Position numbers and translations under genes: made by a program
Shown here: positions 39,941 to 53,549 of the stretch, one piece after another
Numbering within the stretch: the first letter of the stretch is position 1
Layout: the number at the start of each line of letters is the position of its first letter
The notes under the pieces: generated by a model
Told to the model about the DNA's origin: nothing
Database searches by the model: none
What the model saw: only the letters and a program-made list of their open reading frames with translations
Origin: Alphaproteobacteria bacterium Ga0077535
Lineage (GTDB): Bacteria; Pseudomonadota; Alphaproteobacteria; Caulobacterales; Aquidulcibacteraceae
Length of the DNA stretch: 64,000 nt
Direction: 5' to 3'
Assembly (NCBI GenBank): GCA_001464425.1
Contig: LNEK01000020.1
Span: 496,001-560,000, forward strand

Positions 39941-40075
39941 CAGGAGCCTCTTGGTTTCGCGCGCCGTGTGGGCGGCGCCGTCAGCGGGTCTTCGGGCCAG
40001 GGATGGCGGGGATAGCGGCCGCGCATCTCGCTGCGCACAGCGGCGTACGAGCCACGCCAAAAACCGGGCAAGTCC

Positions 40076-42343
40076 TTAGTCGTCTGCACCGGAGCTCAGC
40101 GGCACACGCCCGCCTGCTACCGAGGGATGGCGATCCTGCCCAAACAATTCCTGTAACCGCACCTCAAGCGCAGGCCCGCCGTCAGCCGCGTAGTCGATCG
40201 AGAGGGAAGAGCCGGCAGGCGTCTCAAAGCGTGGCGGCGCCTGCCTATCCAGCTCATGGCGAAGCTGATGCGGCAGCGCACTCAACAGCGCCTTGGCCAC
40301 ATCGACGTCCTTCAGCCGCGTCACACCCTGCAAAGCCGGCGCGAGCCAGTCGCTCGCCGTCGCCAACAAAGCCTCATCACTCCAGTCCGGCCACACCTCA
40401 GCGTCCAACGTGCGCATGAACGCGACGCGCGCCCGCGTCTGCAACGCAGCTTCGTCCCACTCAAGCAACGCCAGTCCGTCATCGCGCACTGCTTCAAGCA
40501 ACGCCGCTTGCAGTTCTTCGCCGCTCAGCCGCTCCACAGGCGCATCGGAGATGACCATGCGGCCCAGCCTGCGCGTTCGCCGCGCACGCAGCGCGCCCGT
40601 GTCCGGATCGACCGTGGCCGAGACGCCATCTTCGATCTTCGCGCCAAACATCGCCTCGATGTCCGCCAACGCAATCGGTGCGGCCAACAATATCTGCGCC
40701 CGCCCAGCCGCCCCTGAAATATCGGCGATGACCAGGAAAGGCTCACGCGCCAGCGGCGAGGCGGCATCAACCGCCGCAGCACGACCATTGACCATCGTGA
40801 ACGAGCCACCGCGCGAGCGTGCAACACGATCGGGATAAGCCAGCGCCAGCACAGCCCCCGCGCGATCTTCATCGAACGCGGCGCTTCCGCCGTCAGCGCT
40901 ACGTGCGATCCGTTGCGCTAAACCACGCGCCGCGTCCGCGCGCTGTCCGCGCTCGCTTGTGAACCGATGCAGCCGCTCGCGTAGGTCGCTGCTGCGCCCC
41001 CCTAGACCTTGCTCAGTTAGCACCACCGCGATGTGCGCCGCGAGCAAGCGTTGTTCTCCAGCCGCTATCACCATATGCGCAAGCCTCGCCGGCAGGGGCA
41101 GCCGCGCAACTGCTGCGCCGTGCGGCGTTAATCGCCCGTTCTCATCCAGCGCGCCAATGCGCGTGAGCAACGCCAACGCTTCGGTCCAAGCCGGCTTCGG
41201 CGGCGGATCGAGCCAGCCAAGCGTCGCAGGATCACTGACGCCCCACGCCGCAAGATCGAGCGCAAGGCCGGAAAGATCGGCGTCGAGAATTTCCGGCCGA
41301 TCAAACGCTGGCAGCGCACGCGTTTCGCCCTCGCTCCAGAGGCGCCAGCAAACGCCCGGCTCCAGACGCCCCGCGCGCCCCGCGCGCTGCGTGACCGAAG
41401 CTTGGCTCGCGCGCACGGTTTCGAGCCGAGAGAGGCCAAGCGCTGGTTCGAAGCGCGGACGGCGCGAGAGGCCCGCATCCACAACGATGCGCACGCCATC
41501 AATGGTAAGGCTGGTTTCCGCAATCGACGTCGCCAGCACGACCTTGCGCCGTCCCGCCGCTGCAGGTGAAATCGCTGCGTCCTGGTCCGCTGGACTCATC
41601 GCGCCGTAAAGCGGGCGAACATCGATGCTCGGATCGGTGATCGTGCTGCGCAACACTTCCGCCGTCCGTTCGATTTCGCGCACGCCCGGCAAAAACACCA
41701 GAGCGCTGCCACGCTCGGCGGCCATCGCCGCGCGAACGGCGGCCGCGACCTCATCCTCCAACCGCGCACTCGCCAGCCGCGGCCGGTGGACGTAAGCGAC
41801 CGGAAACATCCGACCCTCGCTAACGATCACCGGCGCATCGCCGAGCAAAGCAGACACGCGCGCCGCATCAAGCGTCGCGGACATGACAACAAGTTTCAGA
41901 TCAGCGCGCAGGCCAAGCTGCGCATCGCGCGCCAATGCGAGCCCCAGGTCACCCTCAAGACTGCGTTCGTGAAATTCATCGAAGATGACGGCGGCGACGT
42001 CGCGCAATTCTGGATCATCGAGGATCATGCGCGTGAACACGCCCTCGGTAACGACCTCGACGCGCGTGCTTGGCCCAATCTTGGAATCGAGCCGCACCCG
42101 ATACCCAATCGTATCGCCCACACGCTCGCCGCGCTCGCTGGCCATCCGCGCCGCCGCCGCGCGCGCCGCAATGCGCCGCGGTGACAGAAGGATAATCTTC
42201 CCGGCGCCGACCCAGGGCTCGTCGAGCAAGGCCGGGGGCACGCGTGTGGTTTTGCCCGCGCCCGGCGGCGCCACCAGCACAGCCTCGCCGCGCGCCATCA
42301 GCGCCGCACGCAAATCGCCAAGAACATCCTCAACCGGAAGCAT
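40076..42343 (-). CDS. hrpB: ATP-dependent helicase HrpB
   Basis: A 755-residue DEAH-box RNA helicase. Helicase motifs are Walker [10 protein letters not shown], motif [10 protein letters not shown], motif III MSATLD, and motif [16 protein letters not shown]; the HrpB C-terminal domain follows from ~residue 470. It is somewhat shorter than E. coli HrpB (~810-820). Its substrate is not known. It is divergent from the lipoprotein gene at 42440. Confidence 0.93.
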
Positions 42344-49944: not shown

Positions 49945-50497
49945 ATGCGCCCCATCGCCACCCTCCTTCTCGCAGCTCTGCTGACCGCCTGCGCCAGCCG
50001 CGCGCCAGCCGATGTCGCTGTCACGCCGCCAGCGCCGCGCACAGCTTGGATCGTGGGCGCTGACGGCCGCGCCATCGGCCAGGCTTCGGCTCGAATTTTC
50101 TGCAGGCGCGCTGCCGCCCGGCTGGCATGGCCTACATCTGCACACACGCGGCGATTGCAGCGATTTCGCCGCTGGCTTCCAGGCCTCAGGCGGGCATCTC
50201 GGCATGAGCGATCGCGTCCAACACGGCCTGCTCAATCCGAACGGCCCCGAAGCGGGCGATCTCCCCAACATCTTTGCCTCGCCGAACGGGCCATTCGCCG
50301 CCGAAATGCTCTCGCCCTTCACCGTGCTGGCGCCGCAGCGAGTTCCCGGCAACGCCCGCAGCCCCGCCCGCGAGGCGCTGCTGGACGGCGATGGAACCGC
50401 GCTGCTGATCCACGCCAGCGTCGATGATCACGTCTCACAGCCGATCGGCGGCGCCGGCGCGCGCATCGCGTGCGCTGCACTCACGCCAATGCCTTGA
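49945..50497 (+). pseudogene. sodC: Cu/Zn superoxide dismutase family lipoprotein, frameshifted
   Basis: Two overlapping reading frames together encode one protein. The first (from 49945) gives a lipoprotein signal (LLTACAS) and AWIVGADGRAIGQA. The second continues RLEFSAGALPPGWHGLHLHTRGDC, a GGHLG...HG zinc/copper segment, AGDLPN, and LLIHASVDDHVSQPIGGAGARIACAAL to the stop at 50497. Removing one T at 50085-50086 joins them as IGQARLEFSAG in a 183-residue protein. Copper ligands are mostly present, but the zinc-ligand His before GDLPN is Glu. This is either a recent pseudogene or a one-base sequence error. Confidence 0.85.
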
Positions 50498-51512: not shown

Positions 51513-52596
51513 TTGTTGAAGCGAGCCCCCCTCCTGCACCCTGACGTGCAAGCGCCCGGTTCTGAGTGGCTGCCCTACATCCAGGACGCGGCCTGGCTTC
51601 CGCACGCCTACGACTGGCGCTCGGACACTCTGGTCTTCGCCAATCTTCCCAAAGAGGCGCAGCGGAGAGCCGTCTTCCTCGACTCCCGCTTCGTCGCCGA
51701 GGCGCCCCTCTCAGCGCCCGCGCCGGTCGAGGAGCTTTCAATCGGCGCTATCCGCGAGGTCTCCGGGCAGGTTCATTTTCTCTTCCACACCGCCTTCTGC
51801 TGCTCGACGCTGCTCGCCCGCGCGCTTGATATTCCGGGCGTCTCGATGGGGCTAAAAGAGCCCGGCGTTCTCTCGTCCTTCGCCGAGTACTGGTCCGGCA
51901 GCCGGCGCACACCCGGCGCGTTTCTGGCGCTCGGCGCGGCGCTGGACCTGCTCTCCCGTCCGCTTGAGCCGGGCGAAACGCAGATCGTCAAACCCAGCAA
52001 CGTCGTGAACCACATCGTGCCGCAAATGCTGCACGCCCGGCCCGACTCGAAGGCGATCATTCTTTACTCGAGCCTCGACACCTTCCTGCGCGCGATCGCG
52101 CGGCGCGGCATGGAGGGACGCGCCTTTGCGCGTCAGGTCTTCCAGCAATTTGCGCCGGTGATCCCGATCGAGAACGGCTTCACCGAAGCCGACATGGTGC
52201 TGCAGACCGACATGCAAATCGCCGCGCAAGCTTGGCTGATGCAAACGGCGTTTCTCGATTCCGTCGCCCGTCGCTTTGGCCGCAGCATCGTGCGTACCTT
52301 GAGCAGCGAGCGCTTCCTCGCCGACACCGCCGGCACACTCAACGCAGTGAGCGGCTTCTTCAATTTGAGCCTAGACAAACAACGCGCCGCCGAAATCGCC
52401 GCCGGCCCCGTGTTCAGCGAACACGCCAAGGAATTGGGCCGCCCATTCGACGCCGCCGCCTTGGAAGCGCAGCACAAACAAGCCGGCGCGATGTACGCCG
52501 ATGAGATCGCATCGGCCAAAAACTGGGCGCGCAATCTCGCCATGCGCTACGACACGCCGCTCAGCTTCCGCACGCACCTCAGCCGCGATCTCGTAA
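51513..52596 (+). CDS. Sulfotransferase-like P-loop protein, stop codon lost by probable frameshift
   Basis: The credible protein is ~360 residues. A P-loop-like segment [17 protein letters not shown] resembles the PAPS-binding loop of sulfotransferases, and [19 protein letters not shown] resembles the second PAPS site. The substrate is unknown. As read, the frame has no stop at the end of the protein and stays open to 53537, antisense to the luciferase-like gene. A TAA at 52594-52596 is one base out of frame, so one extra base in 52550-52593 would explain the loss. The start is a TTG at 51513. Confidence 0.65.
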
Positions 52597-53549
52597 GCAC
52601 GCACGCGCGCGCCGTGATCGTAGATGTGCGATGCAAGGATCAGTTCATCGGCGCCCGTACGCGCGATGAACGCTTCGATGCTGTGCTTCACCGTTTCCGG
52701 CGAGCCGATCGCGGAGCAGTTCAGCACCTCTTGCAGCGATGCGCGCTCAGCCTCGGTCAGCGACGCTTCGAACGCCGGATCGGGCGGCTGCAGCTTGCGG
52801 GGAATGCCACGACGCAAGCTCGCGAACGCTTGCATCAAAGAGGTCGCCAGCACGCGGCCCTCTTCATCGCTCTCGGCCGCGAACAGATTGAAGCCGAGCA
52901 TCACATACGGCTTCTGCAACTGCTCCGAAGGCTGAAAAGTAGCGCGATAGATCTCAATCGCGCTCATCATCTGCGCCGGCGCGAAGTGCGATGCGAAGGC
53001 GAACGGCAGACCAAGCGCCGCCGCGAGCTGAGCGCCGAACGTGGACGAACCCAAAATCCAGAGCGGCACGTTCGCGCCTTCACCCGGCACCGCGCGCACG
53101 ATCTGACGGGGCTGCGCCGGCGCCAGCAGCGCCTGCAATTCCAACACGTCCTGCGGAAACCGATCCTCACCGCCGACCAGCGTGCGCCTCAGCGCCATCG
53201 CAACGCGCTGATCGCCGCCCGGCGCGCGCCCGAGCCCGAGATCAATGCGGCCAGGATAAAGTGCTTCGAGTGTTCCAAACTGCTCCGCGATCACGATCGG
53301 TGCGTGGTTCGGCAACATGATCCCGCCGGCGCCGACGCGGATGGTCTTCGTCGCTTCCGCCGCATTCATGATTGTCAGCGCCGTCGCGGCGCTGGCGATG
53401 CCTGGCATATTGTGATGCTCAGCGAGCCAAAAGCGGTTGTACCCCAACCGCTCCGCATTCACCGCCAAATCGCGCGAATTGTGCAAAGCCTGCGAAACGT
53501 CTCCGCCCTCAATAACGGGCGCGAGATCAAGAACTGAGAATGGGATCAT
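52547..53549 (-). CDS. LLM class flavin-dependent oxidoreductase (luciferase-like), stop codon lost by probable frameshift
   Basis: The expected ~333-residue protein opens [14 protein letters not shown] and has [19 protein letters not shown] and [15 protein letters not shown], all typical of the MsnO8-like group of bacterial luciferase-family monooxygenases using reduced FMN. As read, the frame stays open to 52371, deep in the sulfotransferase-like gene. A TAG at 52549-52547 lies one base out of frame; removing one base in 52550-52593 restores it. The physiological substrate is unknown. Confidence 0.78.

Follow-up and report, generated by a model that had tools for sequence, protein, structure and literature searches.

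An apparent long antisense overlap of two convergent genes in Alphaproteobacteria bacterium Ga0077535 and its probable origin in a short loss from the assembly

In a stretch of 64,000 nucleotides from assembly GCA_001464425.1 (contig LNEK01000020.1, positions 496,001 to 560,000), hereafter called the window, a sulfotransferase-like gene (sul) and a luciferase-like gene (luc) face each other tail to tail, and each reading frame runs far into the other gene. This raises the question of whether the two genes truly share about 1.17 kb, or whether their stop codons have been lost, and, if so, by what kind of event and whether in the organism or only in the record. Coordinates given without a contig name are window positions.

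Two open frames and a one-base explanation

The features at the locus are as follows.

51513..53537, plus strand: sul as assembled, sulfotransferase-like, open for 674 codons
53549..52371, minus strand: luc as assembled, luciferase-like monooxygenase of the MsnO8 family, open for 392 codons
52557..52577: junction; codon 350 of sul ends at 52562, and codon 325 of luc (Val) is 52577-52575
52594-52596, plus strand: TAA, antisense of conserved luc Ala-Tyr-Glu codons
52549-52547, minus strand: TAG, antisense of sul Arg345-Tyr346, within the sul coding sequence

Both frames are as open as the original prediction had described, and the TAA and TAG that it named are present. The homology of sul to its relatives stops at about Pro349-Leu350 (52562), and the remainder of its frame is luc antisense. 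Likewise, the homology of luc stops at about residues 325-329 (52575-52563), and its final 60 or so residues are sul antisense. Only 12 nt separate the end of sul codon 350 from luc codon 325.

The original prediction held that a single extra base had removed both stop codons from an ancestral 50-base overlap, and that deleting any one base within 52550-52593 would bring the TAA and the TAG back into frame together. This was nearly correct as a statement about the sequence: 42 of the 44 possible deletions yield proteins of 360 and 333 residues, and only two do not, in that removing 52550 gives a plus-strand product of 345 residues and removing 52593 a minus-strand product of 318. Additionally, removing 52565 or 52566 yields a Glu-Leu in luc where its homology ends, as in many relatives.

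However, such a double rescue does not indicate more than chance. When 9 sul and 16 luc genes, including those of the window, were joined in silico into 144 junctions, and stops were sought within 20 codons on both sides, the register for removing one base rescued both frames in 30 of the 144, and that for removing two bases gave double stops in 20 of the 144. In 13 of the 16 luc genes, a stop falls either where the TAA lies or one codon earlier, because that place is antisense to the conserved Ala-Tyr-Glu codons; judged by this position, the TAA is not a lost sul stop. Chance can likewise account for the long plus-strand read-through, which needs nothing more than a luc gene that, downstream of the joint, is free of TTA, CTA and TCA. 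Two of the 16 luc genes, that of the window and that of genome G010, have 321 stop-free codons in this antisense register, and yet G010 has neither a fusion nor a sul gene beside luc.

The encoded proteins show no sign of decay. The luc product matches PF00296 (E 2.2e-40) and TIGR03558 over positions 1-324 of the 325 of the latter model, far above the cut-off of 166.95, which places it among the MsnO8-family LLM oxidoreductases; the score is 427.2 bits at 333 residues and 426.4 at 392, so the 59 extra residues add nothing. None of the 192 columns invariant across 15 other luc genes is broken, and the terminal branch of luc (0.08) is near the median (0.072). The sul product breaks 1 of the 68 columns that are otherwise invariant in nine other sul genes. 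Decay is therefore not visible in either core, and both cores look constrained at the residue level. Between 51300 and 53700, no RNA family reached its gathering score.

The identity of sul is less direct. Its start is likely the GTG at 51546, which aligns with the starts in relatives. The window sul protein matched no Pfam or NCBIfam model, curated sulfotransferase models included, and among 11 sul members scanned, one touched PF13469 (best E 0.014) and one PF00685 (E 0.095). A profile of the sul relatives touches the CurM sulfotransferase of the PDB (E 0.0021). The predicted structure of sul has a pLDDT of 92.5, and Foldseek returns nine hits for it at E ≤ 0.001, every one a sulfotransferase (best E 2.3e-4); the model thus resembles the PAPS-dependent sulfotransferase fold, with TM-scores by query of only 0.31-0.43 (0.42 being reported with the first-ranked sulfotransferases). 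From this predicted fold and the CurM match, the label "sulfotransferase-like" seems fair. A partial sul-like copy (L021) lies elsewhere in the same genome, at G000:C43:14846-15169, with 36% identity to residues 246-353. No viral sul copy was found among 25 pattern matches.

The same gene pair in related genomes

We searched 61 genomes, that of the window included, and found a sul match in 16 and a luc match in 33. Within the genus set of 30 genomes, close luc orthologs (80-87% identity) occur in 15 besides our own. Each of the 29 luc loci retrieved in addition to that of the window has its own stop, at 326-337 codons; nine of nine sul loci read stop 2-16 residues past the aligned part, and a tenth also stops. 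Among these relatives, none uses the TAA or the TAG as its own stop.

In four genomes (G027, G005, G004 and G019), sul and luc are adjacent and convergent, and their stops overlap by 8, 4, 4 and 4 bp, respectively; the 50-base overlap proposed originally is found in none of them. In these four genomes, 34, 50, 38 and 41 nt lie between sul codon 350 and luc codon 325, so that the 12 nt of the window fall short by 22, 38, 26 and 29 nt. In a multiple alignment, the joint carries one long gap, and both stops of the relatives lie between the two landmarks. The comparison shows that about 22-38 nt, with both stop codons, are missing from the joint in the window.

Relatives whose stops are unrelated to the TAA and TAG were the very observation that the original prediction had named as its refutation, and we rejected a single-base insertion as the main cause since the relatives' stops lie elsewhere. 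What survives of the proposal is that one event suffices for both losses, but in that event about 22-38 bases were lost rather than one gained. One extra base had looked right because losses of 38, 26 and 29 nt, from three of the four comparisons, shift the frame as one added base does. In practice, the insertion version requires two events, first a loss in register and then the gain of one base, where a single loss is enough. With adjacent pairs overlapping by only 4-8 bp and chance rescue so common, we regard an inserted base in 52550-52593 as highly unlikely, even though nearly every single-base removal brings both stops in.

A functional, selected antisense overlap of some 1.17 kb would also account for two frames that are both open and for a register free of stops over 321 luc codons. 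However, all 15 further close luc genes in the 30 genus genomes are unfused, which led us to reject a conserved long overlap. Moreover, TTA, CTA and TCA codons are rare enough to account for the open register, G010 is equally open with no sul gene beside luc, and the extra luc residues contribute nothing to the family score. The probability of a selected overlap is close to negligible.

A third possibility is that the strain itself has lost about 22-38 bp, both overlapping stops included, leaving antisense-coded tails (about 324 and 66 residues), degradation, or dying genes. The genus offers some precedent. Several of its species share a conserved gene order of sodC, an EamA-type transporter gene, a variable slot, luc and ssb. 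A survey of gene content with sodC, EamA, sul, kelch-like, luc, ssb and dioxygenase genes as markers showed that the slot between the EamA gene and luc (L130-L147) holds sul, a kelch-like gene, both, or nothing, depending on the species. The sul gene is absent at the loci of G017, G010, G001, G006, G020 and others, luc is absent in 3 of 18 loci read (G003, G012 and G029), and in G024 another gene sits between sul and luc. The joint is therefore mobile in the genus, and a deletion there would not be strange. Additionally, G017, which has the nearest luc (87%), carries no sul gene but a sul-like C-terminal remnant (LTLGETLFQ and its own stop) beside the luc stop (L027:1460-1500), which suggests that a deletion at this spot may have occurred at least once. 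The intact cores are also compatible with a real deletion, since a recent one would leave no residue-level decay.

Three side observations were made at these loci. The tail-to-tail partner of luc overlaps it by 4 bp in six of eight cases and by 8 bp in two of eight. The G027 sul gene (L137) finishes in codons similar to those that close the kelch-like gene of G024 (L134; IFS and stop), which would fit a kelch-like gene lost from G027 except for its tail. Near its start, the G004 sul gene (L138, 3581-4578) has matches in two different frames, to residues 3-76 and to residues 62-350, and its N-terminal part looks frameshifted in the G004 assembly.

Gaps of similar size elsewhere in the assembly

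The same assembly was scanned against relatives for further gaps. A gap was called strict when it had the same length against every covering relative, measured at least 20 nt, and lay in a region covered by at least two relatives. Eight such gaps were found.

39943..42343, minus strand: HrpB helicase gene; 26 nt missing at about 40092 against six of six covering relatives
49945..50497, plus strand: sodC, Cu/Zn superoxide dismutase; 32 nt missing at about 50084 against six of six covering relatives
C20:346729: pyruvate dehydrogenase E2 (PDH E2) gene; 40-nt gap with a frameshift
C20:385608: mfd; 33-nt gap
C20:393349: 3-mercaptopyruvate sulfurtransferase gene; 32-nt gap
C20:328959: peptidylprolyl-isomerase-like gene; 33-nt gap
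C44:97783: unnamed place; 35-nt gap
C44:143457: sucA, the single sucA match in the genome; 30-nt gap

Several of these gaps break conserved genes. The last 50 residues of HrpB run on in another frame (40092-39943), where they are 94-98% identical to four relatives, and in sodC the frame changes between the N-terminal part, which reads in the frame of 49945, and the Sod_Cu part, which reads in that of 50012. The two halves of PDH E2 are 75% and 90% identical to G020, again in different frames, and this broken gene is the only close full-length copy, other matches in the genome being 33-36% alike. A further match of 94 residues (79%, C20:343442, query positions 2-95) is, by its position, probably the lipoyl domain. 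The mfd gap appears to lie within a stretch reading DHGVGRYEG in a relative. The eight lengths are 33, 40, 33, 32, 26, 32, 35 and 30 nt, of which three are multiples of three; the frame pattern is as would be expected without selection on frame.

Six of the strict gaps fall in 190,279 nt of our own contig C20 (C20:316001-576139), four of them resting on two relatives only, and two in 82,555 nt of C44, giving eight in 273 kb. When G027, G020, G023 and G010 were scanned alike, a single strict gap (G010) was found in 703,870 nt (binomial p 2.5e-4). G005, G019 and a further scan of G023 added 168,253 nt and no strict gap, so that the six relatives total one in 872 kb. The sul/luc gap itself is outside the strict eight because the spacing varies naturally between relatives; it was seen against three of the four covering relatives, at 38, 22 and 29 nt. 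Two further gaps that lie outside the window, at C20 352502 and C20 394068, were left out of the strict count since their lengths differ between relatives.

The contrast depends in part on how gaps are counted. Under two other alignment scoring schemes, seven gaps of the same or unequal length were found in our own genome and none in the controls; hrpB and sodC drop out under these schemes, as not every relative gives one gap of at least 20 nt. Looser counts narrow the contrast. In a first scan of the window region (at least 12 nt, three of four relatives), our own genome had six, G010 and G027 none, G005 three and G019 one. When the strict gaps are set aside, those of at least 20 nt that appear against 60% or more of the relatives covering them numbered four in our own genome, the sul/luc gap included, and one each in G020, G019 and G023.

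Other classes of change are not clearly raised. On C20, indels of 1-2 nt comprise 8 deletions and 21 insertions in our own genome versus 12 and 13 in G027; these being not clearly raised, the assembly is not generally poor, and general sequencing noise is unsupported as an explanation. The 1-2 nt insertions unique to our own genome (21, versus 13 and 12 in two relatives over similar lengths) may be due to chance. Strict insertions of 20-45 nt numbered two in our own genome, one in G010 and none in the others, which is not a clear excess, and larger gaps of 20-400 nt, sought in chained alignments with at least two relatives, were absent from our own genome and numbered two in G027. Hairpin-driven loss also found no support: the 70-nt DNA folding energies around the eight gaps, taken from relatives, are ordinary, and 12-94% of random segments are as stable as these regions. 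No clear microhomology at the gaps was seen in the alignments.

Cause of the losses and their meaning

After weighing these data, we consider a systematic defect of assembly or consensus, which lost about 22-38 nt at the joint amid other losses of 26-40 nt in conserved genes of the assembly, to be the probable explanation (roughly 0.8). Several species of the genus carry a sul gene convergent with an MsnO8-family luc gene, their stops overlapping by 4-8 bp. In the record, about 22-38 nt across the joint are missing and both stops with them, and each frame runs through the antisense strand of its neighbor to a chance stop. Contigs joined end to end over short uncovered gaps are one candidate mechanism. 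As inferred from the sequence comparisons, a defect of this type is the most likely cause of the gaps, and a single one explains at once those in conserved genes. In this respect, the suspicion of a sequence error behind the lost stops, to which the original prediction pointed, is likely to be right.

The broken PDH E2 gene points in the same direction because it is the sole close full-length copy, and an aerobic alphaproteobacterium would be severely affected by losing PDH E2. Eight like-sized gaps elsewhere also argue against the overlap existing in the organism. Such an excess, with the PDH E2 frameshift in it, makes a local biological cause unnecessary, and we therefore consider a real deletion in the strain rather unlikely. 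The other biological reading, that the 26-40 nt losses are real and that a burst of narrow-size deletions in this lineage fused the two convergent tails, seems decidedly improbable; selection should remove a lineage that suffers many deletions made without regard to frame. If true, it would be a deletion burst without hairpins or clear microhomology that hits housekeeping genes, an unusual mutational process. Among the matches listed in a literature search, no paper dealt with losses of 26-40 nt as a class, which is not evidence of absence.

The locus can be compared with three published accounts. PMC2174442 describes convergent overlaps that arise by a "stop codon mutation" mechanism, with read-through to a chance stop, as the commonest origin, which would favor a real deletion. 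Our case is the same in that the stops are lost and each gene reads into the antisense of its neighbor to a chance stop; both features of a stop-loss overlap are present, namely, orthologs that end separately or with short overlaps and ancestral stops lost at the joint. In the relatives, the overlaps of 4 bp belong to the types listed in that paper (CTAA, TTAA, CTAG, TTAG). What differs is that both stops went together here, through a loss of about 22-38 nt, and that like-sized losses occur elsewhere in the assembly. In PMC2478687, 124 of 178 convergent overlaps longer than 60 bp are attributed to 3′-end extension errors. The genes here resemble that class, since both exceed their orthologs in length at the 3′ end only and have cores of normal length; in contrast to it, both genes are extended, by a missing stretch and not by a frameshift or point change. 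According to its abstract, PMC11017572 finds assembly errors behind many purported pseudogenes. The broken conserved genes, as candidate assembly errors, are alike, although that abstract concerns frameshifts and internal stops in general, whereas here the class of losses is narrow (26-40 nt).

Taken as an assembly or consensus defect, the losses have consequences beyond this locus. The assembly is rated 99.98% complete and may nevertheless carry about a hundred short gaps in conserved genes, a figure extrapolated from eight in 273 kb to a genome of 3.96 Mb. Pathway or pseudogene calls made from it on PDH E2, SucA, Mfd, HrpB and SodC would be wrong, and gaps of the 26-40 nt kind can mimic both gene overlaps and frameshifts. 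Most likely, the long overlap exists in the record alone, and in the living organism both genes are probably ordinary, each ending normally and neither reaching far into the other. The finding thus has little biological significance, and its value lies mainly in its warning on assemblies.
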